64,000 bases of DNA. It comes from Gammaproteobacteria bacterium. GTDB taxonomy: Bacteria > Pseudomonadota > Gammaproteobacteria > Pseudomonadales > Azotimanducaceae. A program made the position numbers and the translations under genes. Location: NCBI GenBank assembly GCA_026705345.1, contig JAPPAV010000102.1:1-64000 (forward strand). Reading direction: 5' to 3'. Under the pieces are notes generated by a model. The model was given only the letters and a program-made list of their open reading frames with translations. It ran no database searches and was not told where the DNA came from. How positions within the stretch are numbered: the stretch's first letter is position 1; each line of letters opens with the position of its first letter. Positions 17,949 to 28,155 of the stretch are shown piece after piece.

Positions 17949-19007
17949 ATGACCCTTGGAACCACACGCCTGGCCCACGAAGACAACGCCGAACCCCAAG
18001 CCGACGGGCCGTTCGTCGTCCTCGTCGTACTTCGCCCGACGGCCGCGCAGCCGGAAAGCAAGCCGACGTCCGCCGCAAACGGACCCCACCTGGACATCGA
18101 ACTGGCGATCCGCCTGCTCGACGACGCGGCGCTCGCCGAGAGCACCCGCAGGACGTACGCGGGCGCCCTCCGTCGCTACCGGGAGTGGCTGGCCGGACGG
18201 TCTCCGACCGACCGGCTGCTGGCGGCCTACCTCGGCGTGCTGTTCGACAGGGGCCTAGCGCCACCCAGCGCCGAACTGGCGGTCGCCGCCGTGCGGCGCG
18301 CCGTCCGGGATTTCGCCCGCGCCGGACACGACTGCGCCGAGCCGCCCGCGGGACACCTGACGGCCGAACGGCTCGAGCGGTTCCGCCGCGACGGCGCGGG
18401 GCGGGGACGCGGCCAGGCCGGCGCCCTGCGCTGGGAAGACGCCGACAGCATGAGCGAATGCGCCGAGGCCGAGGATGATCCGAGGGGGATCCGCGACGCG
18501 GCGCTGATCGGCGTCACCTCCGACGCGCTGCTCCGCGTTTCCGAGACGTCCGCGCTGGACGCCGCGGACGTGTCGTTCCGGGACGACGGCTCGGCGCACC
18601 TGACGATCCCCCGGAGCAAGACCGACCAGCACGGGGACGGCGCGGTTCTCCACGTGGCGCCTGCCGCCGCCGGACGAATCCGGAACTGGATGGACACCGC
18701 GGGAATCGAATCCGGCCCGCTGTTCCGCCCGGTGGCCGGTCGCCGCATGGTGGTGGAGAAGAGACTGGGATCGGCAGCCGTCCGGGCGGCCATCAAGCGC
18801 CGCGCCGTCCTGGCCGGCATCTTCCGCCGCGTCTCCGGGCACTCGCTGCGCGTCGGCGCCGCGCAGTCGCTGGCGGAGGGGGGCGCGTCGCTGGTGGAGC
18901 TGCAGGTTGCCGGCCGCTGGACCTCTACCGCGATGCCGGCGCGCTACGTGCGCGGACAGGACGCCTGCCGCGGTGCGGTGGCACGGCTGCGGGGCGGCAA
19001 GAAATAA
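17949..19007 (+). CDS. Tyrosine recombinase / phage-type integrase
   Basis: A 352-residue recombinase with a complete catalytic set: Arg196 (ALLRVSETSAL), Lys224 (PRSKTDQHGDG), the H-x-x-R pair His298/Arg301 (GHSLRVGAAQSL), Trp324 (VAGRWTST) and the nucleophile Tyr333 (PARYVRGQD). Residues ~50-125 form a SAM-like core-binding domain (LAESTRRTYAGALRRYREWL). The family is the single-gene integrase type seen in proteobacteria, not an integron integrase (no additional IntI-type motif seen). The N-terminal 45 residues are poorly conserved in appearance, so the true start may be a little downstream. Codon use is strongly GC3-rich like its neighbours, so there is no sign of recent foreign origin. 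Confidence 0.88.
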   Translation: MTLGTTRLAHEDNAEPQADGPFVVLVVLRPTAAQPESKPTSAANGPHLDIELAIRLLDDAALAESTRRTYAGALRRYREWLAGRSPTDRLLAAYLGVLFDRGLAPPSAELAVAAVRRAVRDFARAGHDCAEPPAGHLTAERLERFRRDGAGRGRGQAGALRWEDADSMSECAEAEDDPRGIRDAALIGVTSDALLRVSETSALDAADVSFRDDGSAHLTIPRSKTDQHGDGAVLHVAPAAAGRIRNWMDTAGIESGPLFRPVAGRRMVVEKRLGSAAVRAAIKRRAVLAGIFRRVSGHSLRVGAAQSLAEGGASLVELQVAGRWTSTAMPARYVRGQDACRGAVARLRGGKK

Positions 19008-19332: not shown

Positions 19333-22300
19333 TCAACTCGAGCTCAATGCCTCCGACAGCGCCTGCTCGATCTCGTCGGCCGTGGCGCCCTGTTCGCGGG
19401 CCAACCGGGCCTGGGCTTCCTCTTCCCGGCGTTGCTTGCGGTCCTGGTGGTAGTTCAGACCCGTCCCCGCCGGGATCAGCCGCCCGACGACGACGTTCTC
19501 CTTCAATCCGCGCAGGAAGTCCCGTTTCCCGGTCACGGCAGCCTCGGTCAGCACACGCGTCGTCTCCTGGAACGACGCCGCCGAAATGAACGACTCCGTC
19601 GCCAAGGAGGCCTTGGTGATGCCGAGCAGTACGCGCTCGTATTTCACGGGATTGAGACCGTGGCCCTCGAGGCGCTCGTTCTCAAGCAGCACGTTGACGA
19701 ACTCGGCCTGCTCGCCCCGGATGTAGTCCGAGTCGCCCGGGTCGACGATCTCGACCTTGCGGAGCATCTGGCGGACGATGGTCTCGATGTGCTTGTCGTT
19801 GATCGTCACGCCCTGAAGCCGGTACACCTCCTGGATTTCGTAGATGATGTACTTCGCGAGTTCGGCAACTCCCTTCAACCGGAGAATGTCGTGGGGACTC
19901 TCCGGACCTTCCGAGATGACCTCGCCGCGTTCGACGTGCTCACCCTCGAAAACCGAGATCTGCCGCCACTTGGGAATCAAGGTCTCCACCACCTCGTGGG
20001 TGATGATGTCGCCCCGCTCGACCGTGGCGCCCGCGGCCGGCACGATGCGGTGGGAGTCCGGGATCGTCACGGACAGCTCCTCGCCATCCTCCGGCGTGAT
20101 CACAACGGTCCTCTCCTTCTCTAGGACCGCGAGCTGGCCCGTGACCTCGGCCCGCAATCCCTCGCCCGTGACGACCAGCCGTCTCTTGCCCTTGGTTTCC
20201 TTGCCGAAGCTCACCGTTCCGGTGGCTTCCGCGAGGATCCCCGGCTCTTTCGGCCGGCGCGCCTCGAAGAGGTCGGCGACGCGTGGCAAACCGCCGGTGA
20301 TGTCGCGCGTCTTTGAGCCCTCCTGAGGAATTCGGGCAATCACGTCGCCCACACCCACAGCCGCGTTGTCCTCCACGTTTAGGATCGCGTTGTCCGGCAA
20401 CGAATAGTGGGCCGGCACATCCGTATTAGCGTGGTTTACCGCTTCGCCCGAGACATCGACCAACCTGACCCCGGGACGCATGTCCTTGCCCGCCGTGGGG
20501 CGGTCTTTCGGATCCAGAACCGTGATGCTAGACAGGCCGGTCAGTTCGTCGATCTGTCGATTTACCGACAGACCCTGTTCCATGTCCTCGAACACGACGC
20601 GACCAGCCACCTCAGTAATGATTGGGTGAGTATGCGGATCCCAGTTCGCGATGACTTGACCGGCACCGATGATCTCGTCCGGCCGCGCAGTGATGACTGC
20701 GCCGTATGGCAGCTTGTAGCGTTCCCGCTCGCGGCCGTACTCGTCGACGATCGCGATTTCCCCGGAGCGCGACACCGCCACCAAACCGCCGGAGTCCCGT
20801 TCCACCAGCTTCAGATTGTGCACTCGTACTGCGCCGCCGAAACGCACCTGGACGCTGTCGTTTGCCGTTGCCCGGGACGCCGCGCCGCCGATGTGGAACG
20901 TCCGCATGGTCAGCTGGGTGCCCGGCTCGCCAATGGACTGGGCCGCGATCACGCCCACCGCTTCGCCGACATTGACCCGGTGGCCCCGGGCTAGGTCGCG
21001 CCCGTAGCATTCCGCGCAGACGCCATACCGGGTTTGGCAGGTAATGGGCGAACGCACCTCGATCTCGTCGACGCCCATGTGCTCCAGGCGTTCCACCCAG
21101 GCCTCATCGAGCATTGTGCCCCTGGGGATGAGTTCGTTCTCGCCGTCGACGTCGACCACGGGCCGGGCGAGCACGCGACCGAGCACCCGGGCCGAGAGCG
21201 GCTCGACCACATCGCCGCCCTCGATCAGGGCGGTCATCACCAGACCCTTTTCGGTGCCGCAGTCGGCTTCGGTGACGACGAGATCCTGCGCCACGTCGAC
21301 GAGACGGCGCGTCAGGTATCCCGAGTTCGCCGTCTTCAGCGCGGTGTCCGCCAGTCCCTTGCGGGCGCCGTGCGTCGAAATGAAGTACTCGTTCACCGAC
21401 AGGCCTTCGCGGAAGTTCGCGATGATCGGGGTCTCGATGATGCTGCCATCCGGCCGCGTCATCAGACCGCGCATCCCGGCCAGTTGCCTGATCTGGGCCT
21501 GCGAGCCACGAGCCCCTGAATCCGAATACATGTGCACGGAGTTGAACATTGCGCCGTGGGCCCAATTGTCCGGGATTGTCGTTTCCGCCGTCCCTGCCGA
21601 AATCCCCTTCATCATGGACGCCGACACCAAGTCCTCCGCCCGGGACCAGATGTCCACCGCCTTGTTGTATTTCTCGCCCTGGGTCACGAGACCGGAGGCA
21701 TATTGCGACTCAATCTCGGCGACTTCCTTCCGTGCACCGGCGATGATCGCGGCCTTGTCATCCGGTATGACAAAATCTTCGATCCCGATGGACGCGCCGG
21801 AAGACGTCGAATAGCCGAATCCCGCGTACATCAATTGGTCAGCGAAGACCACGGTCTCCTTGAGGCCGACGTTGCGATAGCATGAATTGATCAGCGCCGA
21901 GATCGCACGCCGGTCGAGTTTCTTGTTGACCAGCGAGAAAGGCAGTTCCTGCGGCAGGAGTTCGTAGAGCAATGCCCGACCCACAGTGGTCTCGACTAAG
22001 GACTCGACGACGCCCTCGTCATTCCGTTCCGGGATGCGCACCTTGACGATGGCGTGGAGATCAACGCTCCCAGTGTCGAAGGCACGTCTGACCTCGGCTA
22101 TGTCGCTGAACTTCCTGCCTTCGCCTGCGACACCCGATTTTTCTCGTGTCATGTAGTAGAGGCCGAGGACGACGTCGTGGGTCGGCACGATGATCGGCTC
22201 GCCACTGGCCGGCGACAGCACGTTGTTGGTCGACATCATCAGCGCCCGGGCTTCGAGTTGCGCTTCGAGCGTCAACGGTACGTGCACGGACATCGTGTCG

Positions 22301-23883
22301 CCGTCAAAGTCGGCGTTGAAGGCGGCACAAACCAACGGGTGCAGCTGAATCGCGTTGCCTTCGATGAGCAGCGGTTCGAAGGCCTGGATGCCCAACCTGT
22401 GCAGGGTCGGCGCCCGGTTTAGCAGCACCGGATGCTCGCGGATGACCTCCGCGAGAATGTCCCAGACCTCAGCGGTCTCCCGCTCCACCATGCGCTTGGC
22501 CGACTTGATGGTGGTGGCCAGTCCCCGTGTTTCGAGCTTTCCGAAGATGAACGGCTTGAACAGCTCCAGCGCCATCTTCTTCGGGAGCCCGCACTGGTGC
22601 AGCTTCAAGGTCGGGCCAACGACGATGACCGTCCGCCCGGAGTAGTCGACGCGCTTGCCCAGGAGGTTCTGCCGGAACCGTCCCTGCTTGCCCTTGATCA
22701 TGTCCGCGAGCGACTTCAGCGGTCGCCGGTTGGATCCCGTGATGGCCCGACCGCGACGACCGTTGTCGAGCAGCGCGTCCACGGCTTCCTGCAGCATCCG
22801 CTTCTCGTTGCGTACGATGATGTCCGGCGCATTGAGATCGAGCAGTCTTTTCAGGCGGTTGTTGCGGTTGATCACCCGACGGTAGAGATCGTTCAGGTCC
22901 GATGTCGCGAACCGCCCGCCGTCCAACGGTACCAGCGGACGCAGGTCCGGCGGCAACACCGGCAGCACGGTGAGGATCATCCACTCGGGCTTGTTGGCTT
23001 TCCCGTGGGTACTCGACTGGAACGCCTCCATGAGCTTCAAGCTCTTCGAGAGCTTCTTGCGTTTGGTCTCCGAAGTCGACGTGCGGACCTGTTCCGCGAT
23101 CTGTTCGACCCGGCTTTCGAGATCCAGGGCAATCAGGAGTTCGCGAACGGCTTCGCCACCCATCATCGCCGTGAACTCGTCGCCGTGGCGTTCGATTTCC
23201 TCGTAGTACTCCTCGTCCGTCAGCAGCATGCCCGCCTCGATGCCCGGCACGGTGCCCGGGTCGGTGACGACATGGTTCTCGAAATAGAGCACGCTCTCCA
23301 CCGAGCGCAGCGTGCCGATGTAGCGCCGCTCCACCCACAGATTCGGTGCCAGCCCCGGACGGGTTTCCTGGGATGCCTCGTGGTCTTCGCGGCAGGTGTA
23401 GCGTTTCGACAGGTTCGACACCATGTCACCGGGCGCATAGTGCTGACCCGCCTTCCAGCTCGTCAGCTTGCCGTGGCTGTCCTCGCCGTAGCCCGCGTCG
23501 AGCAGCAGTCCGATCCGCGAGGGCAACGACTTGAGGAACCAGATGTGGGCGACGGGACTCGCCAGTTCGATGCGTCCCATGCGTTCGCGGCGAACCTTCG
23601 AAAGGGTCACCTCCACCCCGCACTTCTCGCACATGACGCCGCGGTGCTTGAGCCGCTTGTACTTGCCGCACAGACATTCGTAGTCCTTGGTGGGACCGAA
23701 GATCCGGGCGCAGAACAAGCCGTCCCGCTCCGGCTTCAAGGTGCGGTAGTTGATGGTCTCGGGCTTCTTGACTTCGCCGTAGGACCACGAGCGGATCATC
23801 TCCGGTGACGCCAGTCCGATGCGCAGGCTGTCGAACTCGTCCGGTGCGCTCTGGCCCCTAAACAGATTGATGAGATCTTTCAT
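19333..23883 (-). CDS. rpoC: DNA-directed RNA polymerase subunit beta' (with two extra segments)
   Basis: A 1516-residue beta' subunit, about 110 residues longer than the E. coli protein. The zinc ribbon cysteines are at residues 70, 72, 85 and 88 (CLCGKYK...VMCEKC). The catalytic Mg-binding motif is NADFDGD, and the second zinc site includes [11 protein letters not shown]. The SI3-type insertion of gammaproteobacteria is present. Two further insertions set it apart: about 60 residues after the clamp sequence [10 protein letters not shown] (residues 130-191), and about 50 residues before IPKWRQ near the C-terminus (residues 1240-1302). Both keep the reading frame and sit between well-conserved blocks. 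The gene follows rpoB after 48 bp in the classical operon. Confidence 0.98.
19978..20166 (-). other. Internally duplicated beta-barrel segment in RpoC C-terminal region
   Basis: RpoC residues 1240-1302. The inserted part contains [19 protein letters not shown], which repeats at 29-residue spacing the native [19 protein letters not shown] (identical or similar at I-P, I, G, V-E-R-G and [DE]-[IV]-I). The segment before it ([13 protein letters not shown]) matches the E. coli ITPVDGSDPYEEM that normally precedes IPKWRQ. This looks like a tandem duplication of one sandwich-barrel element of beta'. Confidence 0.6.
23311..23496 (-). other. Extra beta'-clamp domain in RpoC resembling a CBM5/12-like module
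   Basis: This encodes RpoC residues 130-191, absent from E. coli beta', where [10 protein letters not shown] is followed directly by the equivalent of [11 protein letters not shown]. The insert has the spacing W-x-x-G-x-x-Y-x-x-G-D-x-V ... Y-x-C ... D-H-x-A-S ... P-x-x-x-P-x-L-W, which matches the small beta-sheet carbohydrate-binding fold found in chitinases and phage tail proteins. In Thermus the same clamp position carries a large unrelated insertion, so the site tolerates extra domains. The relationship is by pattern only. Confidence 0.6.
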
Positions 23884-23931: not shown

Positions 23932-26900
23932 TTAGTCCCGATGCAGGTCGATGTCGATCCCGAGGGATCGGATCTCCTTCACGAGAACATTGAAGGATTC
24001 CGGCATCCCCGGGTCCATCTCGAAGTCGCCGTCGACGATGTTCTTGTACATCTTCGTACGGCCCGTCACGTCGTCGGACTTGACCGTCAGTACTTCCTGC
24101 AAGGTATAGGCCGCGCCGTAGGCTTCGAGTGCCCATACCTCCATTTCGCCGAACCGCTGACCGCCGAACTGCGCCTTGCCCTGCAACGGCTGCTGCGTGA
24201 CAAGACTGTAGGATCCGGTGGAACGGCAGTGCATCTTGTCGTCCACCAGGTGATCCAGTTTCAGCATGTACATGTACCCGACGGTCACCGGACGGTCGAA
24301 GGAGTCCCCGGTGCGACCGTCGTAGAGCACGGTCTGGCCGCTGCTCGGCAAGCCAGCGAGCTCAAGCAGGTTGCGGATGTCGTCCTCCTTGGCACCGTCG
24401 AACACCGGCGTCGCGATGGGTACCCCGTCGCGAAGGTTCTCCGCGAGTTCCAGAATCTCCGGGTCGGTCAAGGTGCCCAGATCCTCGCCTTGGCCGTTGA
24501 CCGATCCGTCGCCGTTGTAGACCTTGTCCAAGTAGCTGCGCATCGTTGCCGCGCGTTCGGCAATGCTCGGCCCCGAGTCTGCCTCGAGCAGCTGGCCGAT
24601 CTTTTCGCCGACCCCTTTCGCCGCCCAACCAAGGTGTGTCTCGAGTACCTGGCCGACGTTCATTCGGGATGGCACACCCAGTGGATTCAGTACGATGTCC
24701 ACGGGCTCGCCGTGTTCGTCGAACGGCATGTCCTCCACCGGCATGATGACCGATACCACGCCCTTGTTGCCGTGGCGTCCCGCCATCTTGTCGCCGGGCT
24801 GGATGCGCCGCTTGATGGCGAGGTAGACCTTGACGAATTTGAGCTCTCCCGGCCGGAGGTCGTCGCCGCCTTCGATCTTGGTCTTCTTGTCCACGAAAAC
24901 CGCATCCAGTTCGCGCCGTCTCGCCTTGAGCTGCCGCTCCGCCTTGTCGAGCTGGCTGTTCAGGGCATCGTCTGCCATCCGCACCCGGAACCACTGGTCG
25001 GAACTCAGTTCGTCGAGATAGGCGTCGGTGATTTCAGCCCCGCTGTCGAGCTCGGGCGCGCTGGCGGCTTCGTTGCCGCAGAGGGCCTCGCGCAGCCGCT
25101 CGAACGTGGCGCCCTCGACGATGCGGTACTCGTCGTCGAGATCCTTCTTGATCTCCTCGAGTTCCATACGCTCGATGTCCAACGCGCGCTTGTCCTTCTC
25201 CAGCCCGTCCCGGGTGAAGATGCGAACGTCGATGACGGTGCCGCGGACGCCCGTGGGAACCCTGAGCGAGGTGTCCTTAACGTCCGACGCCTTCTCGCCG
25301 AAGATCGCGCGCAGGAGCTTTTCCTCCGGTGTCAGCTGGGTTTCGCCCTTGGGCGTGACCTTGCCGACCAGGATGTCCCCCGGTGCGACTTCGGCACCCA
25401 CGTAGACGATTCCCGACTCGTCGAGCTTCGCCAAGGCGGACTCGCCGACATTGGGGATGTCGCAGGTGATCTCCTCCGGGCCTAGCTTCGTGTCCCGTGC
25501 GCTGCAGGTAAGCTCCTGGATGTGCACGCTGGTGAAGCGGTCCTCCTGCACGACGCGTTCGGAGATCAGTATCGAGTCCTCGAAGTTGTAGCCGTTCCAG
25601 GGCATGAAGGCGATGCGCATGTTCTGGCCCAGCGCCAGCTCGCCGGTATCCACCGACGGACCGTCGGCGAGAATATCCCGCGCCGATATCCGGTCGCCTT
25701 CCTTCACGAGTGGCCGCTGATTGATGCAGGTGTTCTGGTTCGAGCGCGTGAACTTGGTCAGGTTGTAGATGTCGACGCCGGCCTCGCCCGCGGTCATCTC
25801 GTCGTCGTCCACCCGCACGACGATTCGTGCGGCATCCACGGAGTCCACCACGCCGCCCCGTTCCGCGATCATGCAAACGCCCGAGTCGCGTGCGACATGG
25901 CGTTCAATCCCGGTACCCACGAGTGGCGTCTCGGTGCGGATGGTCGGGACCGCCTGGCGCTGCATGTTCGAACCCATGAGCGCACGGTTGGCATCGTCGT
26001 GCTCCAGGAAGGGGATCAGCGCCGCCGCCACCGACACGAGCTGCTTCGGCGACACGTCCATGTAGTCGACCTTCTCCGGCGCCATCTTCGTGAATTCGTT
26101 CAGGTGGCGAACATCGACGAAATCCTCGACGAAACGCCCCGAGTCGTCGAGCACCGAGTTGGCCTGGGCAATCACATGTTCGGCTTCGTCGATCGCCGAC
26201 AGGTAGTGGCAGTGGGCCTCGTATCGAGCCGGTGCCGCCCCTTTCCCGAGCTTCCGGTTCGCCGCCTCGGCATCCTGGCGACTCATCACCTCGCCGGTGC
26301 GAAACCCCGAGTCGCCCCCTGCCGTGATGCGTACTTCGTCGACGACGCAACCGTCCTCCACCCGGCGGTAGGGAGTCTCCAGGAATCCGTATCGGTTGGT
26401 ACGCGCGTAAGCCGCCAGCGAGTTGATCAGTCCGATGTTCGGGCCTTCCGGCGTCTCGATGGGGCAGATTCGCCCGTAGTGGGTCGGATGCACGTCGCGG
26501 ACCTCGAAACCAGCACGCTCCCGGGTCAGTCCGCCCGGACCGAGGGCGGACACGCGTCGCTTGTTCGTCACCTCCGAGAGCGGGTTGGTCTGGTCCATGA
26601 ACTGCGAGAGTTGGCTCGAACCGAAGAACTCCTTGATGGCCGCCGCCACCGGTTTCGCGTTGATCATGTCCTGGGGCATCAGCCCCTCGGACTCCGCCAT
26701 GGACAGGCGTTCCTTGACCGCCCGCTCGACCCTGATGAGACCGACGCGGAACTGGTTCTCCGCCATCTCCCCGACGGATTTGACCCGTCGATTGCCGAGG
26801 TGGTCGATGTCGTCCACCGATCCCTTGCCGTTCTTGATCTCGATCAGGGTCTTCAAGACATCGATGATGTCCTGATTGGTCAGAATCCCGGGGCCGGTGA

Positions 26901-28155
26901 TCCGGTCCCTGCCCAGCCGCCGGTTGAATTTCATGCGTCCGACGGCCGACAGGTCGTAGCGCTCGGGCGCGAAGAACAGGTTGTTGAACAGGTTTTCCGC
27001 CGCCTCCTTGGTCGGCGGTTCTCCCGGCCGCATCATGCGGTAGATCTCGACGAGCGCCTCGAGCTTGGTCTTGGTCACATCGATCGCGAGCGTGTCCGAG
27101 ATGAACGGTCCGCAGTCGAGGTCGTTGGTGTAGATCGTGTCGATGCGCTTGACCCCGGCCTCGATGAGCTGGTCGAGGACTTCGTCGGTGACCGCGGTGT
27201 TGCAGGAGACGATGATCTCCCCGGTTTCCTTGTCGACAATATCCTTGGCGATGACGCGGCCGAGCAGATACTCGCGCGGAACATCCAAGCGGCGCAGGCC
27301 GGACTGCTCCAGGAGCCGGACATGCCGGGCCGTAATCCGTCGACCCACTTCCACGAGCACGTCGCCCGACGCTCCCTTGATCTCGAACGTCGCCACGTCG
27401 CCGCGCAGACGTTCCGCGATGAGATCCATCGAGAAGCCGCCCTTCTTGACGTGGAAGACGTTGTTGTCGAAGAACATCCCGAGGATCTGCTCGGAGGAAT
27501 AGTCGAGGGCGCGCAGGATGATCGTCGCGGGCAGCTTGCGCTTGCGATCGATGCGGACGTAGACCGCATCCTTGGGATCGAACTCGAAGTCGAGCCACGA
27601 TCCGCGGTACGGGATGATCCGCGCGTTGTAGAGGAACTTGCCCGAGGAGTGCGTCTTGCCCTTGTCGTGGTCGAAGAACACGCCCGGCGAGCGATGCAGT
27701 TGCGACACGACGACGCGTTCCGTGCCGTTGATGATGAACGTCCCGTTCTCGGTCATGAGCGGAATCTCGCCCATGTACACTTCCTGCTCCTTGACGTCCT
27801 TGACGGATTTGTTGGAGGAGTCGCGGTCGTAGATGATGAGCCGCACCCGGACCCGCAGCGGCGCAGCGTAGGTAAGCGTACGCAGAACGCACTCGCGCAC
27901 ATCGAAAGGCGGTTCGCCGAGTCGGTAGTCGACGTATTCGAGGGCGGCGTTGCCCGAATAGCTCACGATGGGGAACACGGAGCGGAAGGCGGCGTGGAGC
28001 CCGACGTCCTGGAGCCTCGACGCCCTGACGCCTCGTTGCAGGAACTTGCCGTAGGAATCCACCTGGATCGACAACAGGTAGGGGATTTCCATGGCTTCGG
28101 GCAGCTTGCCGAAGTCTTTGCGGATGCGCTTTTTCTCAGTGAAACTGTACGCCAT
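23932..28155 (-). CDS. rpoB: DNA-directed RNA polymerase subunit beta
   Basis: A 1407-residue beta subunit that begins [20 protein letters not shown], typical of gammaproteobacteria. Rifampicin-region residues appear normal: [31 protein letters not shown]. The SI1-like and beta flap regions align by eye with E. coli. The extra ~65 residues include a clear ~40-residue insertion at residues 610-649, before [18 protein letters not shown]. The C-terminus [22 protein letters not shown] is canonical. Translation starts at ATG 28155 preceded by ACGGGGAA. The gene lies downstream of the rplL attenuator. Confidence 0.98.
26209..26328 (-). other. Forty-residue insertion in RpoB
   Basis: RpoB residues 610-649. 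In E. coli and pseudomonads the sequence around V-V-T-D-[ED]-I goes straight to [HE]YLSAIEE. Here about 40 residues intervene, rich in Gly, Arg and Ala, including [20 protein letters not shown]. It is hydrophilic and probably surface exposed. Function unknown. Confidence 0.6.

Follow-up and report, generated by a model that had tools for sequence, protein, structure and literature searches.

Lineage-specific insertions in the large subunits of RNA polymerase are known as a kind, and two of them occupy the same part of the β′ clamp as the insert described here. In mycobacteria, an insertion unrelated to ours, located at approximately β′ residue 140, projects from the tip of the clamp and spans the entrance of the cleft, and in Thermus another insertion at approximately residue 140 has a role in σ binding (PMC5511352). 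These elements, β′i1 of Actinobacteria and β′i2 of Deinococcus–Thermus, are phylum-wide and consist of a coiled coil or of sandwich-barrel hybrids. In the available portion of PMC11515920, β′-bD2 insertions form a described class, and the β′ insertion domains named are HABAS, BEAN, or sLC only, with no CBM5/12 type. In open complexes of Escherichia coli, downstream DNA is contacted by Arg133, Lys213, Lys216, Lys219, and Arg311 of the clamp and by Lys1151, Lys1167, Lys1170, Lys1172, and Arg1174 of the jaw (PMC7822876). The β′ insert of the present study is likewise lineage-specific and lies in the clamp, but it enters between residues 129 and 131, some ten residues ahead of β′i1 and β′i2, is of the CBM5/12 type, and occurs in one clade of one genus. 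The statement in the initial annotation that the clamp carries lineage insertions in other phyla thus holds for the neighborhood, with Thermus and Actinobacteria as examples, but not for the insertion point itself.

The stretch of DNA analyzed, called the window, is 64,000 nucleotides long. The rpoC gene (19,333–23,883, minus strand) encodes a β′ subunit of 1516 amino acids, as judged from its reading frame, a family match, and alignment to solved chains; it was the single copy found in this genome, and it carries the insert. Solved β′ chains align without gaps up to Asp129 (Asp129 in E. coli), and the alignment restarts behind the insert at Thr191 (residue 131 of the Pseudomonas-type chain) and Leu192 (E. 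coli residue 132), so that Arg193 (23,305–23,307, minus strand) is the equivalent of the DNA-contacting Arg133 of E. coli in the contact list of PMC7822876. The insert comprises residues 130–190 (23,314–23,496, minus strand), between LLLD129 and TLR193. Compared with relatives, the extra residues number 60 (131–190), and Ala130 takes the place of Met130. The gain of about 60 residues over E. coli RpoC noted in the initial annotation, which had been placed at 23,311–23,496 (RpoC residues 130–191), is therefore confirmed by the alignments to relatives and solved chains. A search of the window's own genome yielded a single place of this kind, besides a weak match unrelated to it.

The insert belongs to the CBM5/12-like modules by its sequence. 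The Pfam profile PF02839 (CBM_5_12) matches residues 143–183 (23,335–23,457, minus strand) with 27.8 bits; the insert on its own scored 27.7–27.9 bits, above the cut-off of 26.2, and a 65-residue piece gave an E-value of 2.3e-6 (27.9 bits), whereas the whole RpoC of the window scored 21.9 bits (E = 1.8e-4), under the cut-off. All of the six homologous inserts found matched the profile (best E = 3e-9), and in the genome search all of them exceeded the cut-off (27.8–37.3 bits). A profile built from the six inserts matched the CBM12 of a chitin oligosaccharide deacetylase (PDB ID: 3wx7; E = 5.3e-7 over 56 residues) and the chitin-binding domain of ChiA1 (PDB ID: 1ed7; E = 0.0091 over 42 residues). 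Trp143, Tyr149, Gly152–Asp153, Tyr162, Cys164, His168, Pro176, Pro180, and Trp183 are invariant in the six inserts, and the 3wx7 module and the ChiA1 domain share this core of W, GD, Y.C, H, P, and W. The core aromatics of such modules, a strand tyrosine and a tryptophan near the C-terminus, are thus present among the invariant Trp143, Tyr149, Tyr162, and Trp183; in CjCBM5, the core residues are Tyr265 and Trp299 (PMC8449059). Because the alignment with 3wx7 starts at AGY, the very start of the insert, the linker and the module may have arrived together. The aromatic, glycine, and cysteine spacing that had first suggested a CBM5/12-like mini-domain in the clamp hence exceeds chance, and both the sequence profiles and the alignment position support that assignment. 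The normal setting of CBM5/12 modules is a secreted enzyme, whereas this one sits inside RNA polymerase.

The canonical binding tryptophan has been lost. A tryptophan stands opposite residue 174 in the alignments of the five best PDB matches, 3wx7 being the first, and Trp687 of ChiA1 (index 33 of 1ed7), which we take to be a residue of the chitin-binding face, falls on residue 174 when placed by the equal length of the matched stretches. Whereas the 3wx7-type modules and ChiA1 have tryptophan at this binding position, the six inserts have Thr, Thr, Thr, Gly, Asp, and His. The chitin-binding pair of CBM5 modules is an adjacent Tyr–Trp or Trp–Trp (PMC8449059); the insert has no adjacent pair of Phe, Trp, or Tyr, and the exposed aromatics of a chitin-binding face were not found. 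Because of the substitutions at the Trp687 position and the absence of an adjacent aromatic pair, binding of a sugar by the insert is unlikely. AlphaFold models of the isolated insert (shallow alignment of six sequences) and of clamp residues 1–392 (15 sequences: that of the window plus 14 taken from the 29 exact-peptide relatives described below) had mean pLDDT values of 44.5 and 44.4, respectively, and are uninformative as to the small β-sandwich fold of CBM5/12 modules, since conserved parts of RpoC came out equally poor.

Within the genus, the insert is borne by six of the 16 genomes sampled. In a search of 58 genomes, the same six were the bearers; of the other 52, five were without a match, and the remaining 47 had no match spanning the insert. 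No further bearer appeared among the matches listed for 200 genomes of the family (168 with a match). Ten weakly or doubly matching genomes of this survey were re-examined, of which G063, G188, and G196 look incomplete; G075, G185, G193, and G197 of genus g8 stood outside the re-examined set. One family genome, G160, has two different rpoC frames (L091 on contig C96, 97% identical to the query, and L101 on contig C130, 70% identical), for which contamination and a second polymerase gene are the candidate explanations. In a sample of 398 genomes of the phylum (366 matching), all matches listed other than that of the window's own genome leave out the module and start past it, with residue 62 or 63 of the query. 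A scan of 84,980 species genomes for exact 8-residue peptides, which is blind to distant CBM inserts in other RpoCs and may omit the window's own genome, returned 29 relatives. Five of these are contigs that contain the insert in full, and the other 24 match only behind it.

The six bearers form a single clade in the RpoC tree with a support of 100/100, as do the five with rpoB in the combined RpoC and RpoB tree (100/100), and their sister pair, G001 and G009, has no insert. The names of the metagenome-assembled genomes (MAGs) include RHO1, RHO3, COS4, and SB0670, which suggests marine sponge hosts. The sponges Rhopaloeides, Coscinoderma, and Ircinia are treated in PMC8163846, and an origin of these MAGs in that study is conjectural.

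The insert is under clear purifying selection. Pooled over the 15 pairs of the six bearers, dN/dS was 0.13 for residues 130–190 and 0.15 for the CBM core, compared with 0.026 for RpoC residues 1–129, 0.063 for 191–320, and 0.079 for 320–1239. The insert therefore changes faster than the rest of RpoC yet is clearly constrained. An assembly artefact, which the initial annotation had named as a possible refutation, is unlikely because six genomes carry the insert in frame, five of them represented by separate named MAG contigs, and has this low dN/dS.

The neighboring clamp segment, RpoC residues 191–300 (approximately 131–235 in E. coli; 22,984–23,313, minus strand), changed in concert with the insert. 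Eight non-bearers of the genus share 74 invariant columns in this segment, and at 18 of these all six bearers differ, a change on the stem branch of the bearers; the count for the rest of RpoC is 12 of 938 (odds ratio 24.8, p = 2e-14), and the 12 include residue 130, which borders the insert itself. The other two of the ten non-bearers were left out of this count, G008 being truncated and G012 having a long branch and an insert of its own. A smaller count with five bearers and six non-bearers found 19 changed columns in residues 181–300 against 3 of 897 in RpoB, and the stem of the sister pair had none in 181–300. Identity in the segment is 93% among the bearers and 61% between the groups. The bearers also have one added residue at 211 and a clade-specific insertion of four residues (292–295; 22,999–23,010, minus strand). 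Import of the segment from another lineage was considered as well: the best identity outside the genus among the matches listed was 59%, the same as for the sister G009 (59%), and no donor was seen among the lineages sampled.

Two further insertions are specific to the clade. One, in RpoC, spans residues 1240–1296 (19,996–20,166, minus strand) with 53 extra residues. It has the likeness to the β′ hybrid domain expected of HABAS/SBHM domains, and it probably arose by tandem duplication of the hybrid domain of the jaw, because it shares 35–37% identity over 54 amino acids with the relatives' own hybrid domain in G001, G009, and G013 (E = 5e-6 to 4e-7, 30.0–33.1 bits). The best of 200 shuffled sequences, run against the RpoC of the window, reached 24.3 bits, and the window's own interrupted hybrid domain scored 19.2 bits, below that maximum. 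Set beside the described HABAS, BEAN, and sLC insertion domains, this insertion looks like an additional hybrid-type copy. It is fast-evolving (dN/dS 0.36). The other, of 41 residues, is in RpoB (1407 amino acids; 23,932–28,155, minus strand) at residues 609–649 (26,209–26,331, minus strand; approximately E. coli residue 602). All five bearers whose rpoB could be read have it, none of the 13 other relatives does, and no Pfam family matches it. Private insertions were also observed in the rpoB of two other genomes, both near residues 1194–1217: an Ala/Pro-rich repeat of approximately 66 amino acids in G013 (L045) and 34 amino acids in G004 (L036).

No comparable clade-specific insertions were found in eight other conserved proteins. 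L10, L11, NusG, and EF-Tu have no gaps (the G011 stretch lacks EF-Tu, and that of G005 lacks nearly all of it), L7/L12 has gaps of 1–3 residues, L1 has a 27-residue gap in G004 alone, and SecE has small gaps in most genomes. The σ70 factor has no clade-specific indel in the comparison of four bearers with eight others. The genes past rpoB in the window are presumably rplL, rplJ, rplA, rplK, nusG, secE, and tuf, as named from their sequences, and the relatives of these small genes sit together in the genus. Immediately past rpoC on its 3′ side, at 17,949–19,007 on the plus strand, lies a tyrosine recombinase of the phage integrase family (PF00589, E = 3.4e-14); the gene that we would expect at this place is rpsL.

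The source of the module was sought in several collections. In each of the six bearer genomes, RpoC is the sole match to PF02839 at E ≤ 0.01, and a donor module other than RpoC itself was not found at this threshold; among the remaining ten genomes of the genus, matches occur in G015 alone, and all three of them fall under the cut-off. A tblastn search returned weak matches only. Those to phages comprised 35 records with a best E-value of 0.01, of which 24 belong to Streptococcus phages, and several carry a CBM5/12 annotation; those to plasmids comprised 19 records (best E = 0.001), and neither a phage nor a plasmid origin was adopted. The best match in PHROGs had an E-value of 0.084, and NCBIfam holds no family for the insert. 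The β′ insertion of Thermus aquaticus (PDB ID: 2auj) gave an E-value of 1.4, which was taken as chance. The clamp site itself has received other inserts. G012 (L044), from another branch than the bearers, has one of 26 amino acids that ends in [RK]R[YF]IGTLRS[VI]ES like the CBM-type insert; a group of G012 with the bearers was rejected (p-AU 0.0002; G012 has a long branch), and a common origin of the two was not adopted. Repeated loss of an ancestral insert, recombination, and convergence are the candidate explanations for the shared end. G028 (L048) and G080 have inserts of approximately 19 amino acids at this site, alike in the two genomes and unrelated to the CBM-type insert.

Here, we propose that exaptation turned a CBM5/12-type module into a structural part of the clamp, one that extends it and adjusts how tightly downstream DNA is gripped, a reading that could equally well prove right or wrong. 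On this reading, rpoC acquired the module a single time, in the common ancestor of one clade within the genus, in the loop between Asp129 and residue 131 of E. coli, two residues ahead of Arg133. Its core is kept and would fold in place, its chitin-binding face is lost, and the adjoining clamp segment has changed along with it. Together, the module, the apparently duplicated jaw domain, and the β insertion probably alter the hold of the cleft on the downstream duplex, as other lineage insertions at the mouth of the cleft may do, and clamp closure, the lifetime of the open complex, and the entry or exit of σ region 1.1 are candidate effects. We propose this mechanism because the insert, the clamp segment, and the second insertion adjoin the equivalents of DNA-contacting residues, and because the mycobacterial and Thermus insertions act at the entrance of the cleft or on σ. 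The insert ends two residues from Arg193, the changed segment includes Lys274, Lys277, and Lys280 (equivalents of Lys213, Lys216, and Lys219), and the second insertion begins four residues past Arg1235 (equivalent of Arg1174); these are distances in sequence, noticed after the fact, and such closeness is no proof that the module lies near DNA. Residue 174 and several other positions of the insert vary, and the high dN/dS of the second insertion also speaks against the proposal.

The same concerted changes would be left by neutral drift with compensation. The module would then be a tolerated, largely neutral insertion accommodated by constructive neutral evolution and devoid of a new function; the short, unrelated inserts of G012, G028, and G080 at the same site and the piling up of insertions in several places in RpoB as well as RpoC fit this account, but the constraint on the insert and its invariant core in six genomes make it rather unlikely. 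That constraint, together with strong conservation of the surface that lies between the positions that vary, is also what a docking platform for a lineage-specific σ, anti-σ, elongation, or phage factor would leave, as the suggestion in the initial annotation of a bound regulator implied. We know of no such partner. Thermus β′i2, which lies near this site, offers a precedent through its role in σ binding (PMC5511352). The σ70 of the clade, however, shows no indel of its own, and we regard docking as a doubtful explanation.

The burst of change around the downstream channel, which of the ten proteins in the comparison affects only RpoB and RpoC, could also reflect escape from a polymerase inhibitor or a phage protein acting at the clamp or cleft in a habitat rich in both. 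To our knowledge, however, no such inhibitor or phage factor has been reported here, and the sponge habitat is itself deduced from MAG names; we rate this account as very unlikely. A module that still binds a sugar polymer or a sugar nucleotide and makes the polymerase responsive to it would agree with the family membership, but the residues at the Trp687 position, the lack of two adjacent aromatics of the CBM5 kind, and the cytoplasmic setting leave this scarcely credible.

The structural clamp extension proposed above concerns proteins that are among the most conserved, the large subunits of RNA polymerase, and the β′ insertion domains described in the sources examined are of few recurrent types. 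A search of the open-licence literature found no CBM within RNA polymerase, and the RpoC insertions described in the accessible parts of the papers examined, which the initial annotation had allowed might already include this one, are not of the CBM5/12 type. Against these sources, the module type, the slightly different insertion point, and the unusually clear concerted change are new. The core RNA polymerase may even have been rebuilt around the captured module, which would now act as a switch of the clamp responding to a ligand or a protein, in an uncultured and probably sponge-dwelling group; we consider this a speculative and rather improbable step, and if true, it would be a kind of clamp control without a description in the literature found. 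The recent capture of a module from an extracellular enzyme, with an insert-free sister pair in the same genus, provides a natural before-and-after comparison that bears on how a new domain joins the transcription machine and on what the clamp beside the downstream DNA controls.
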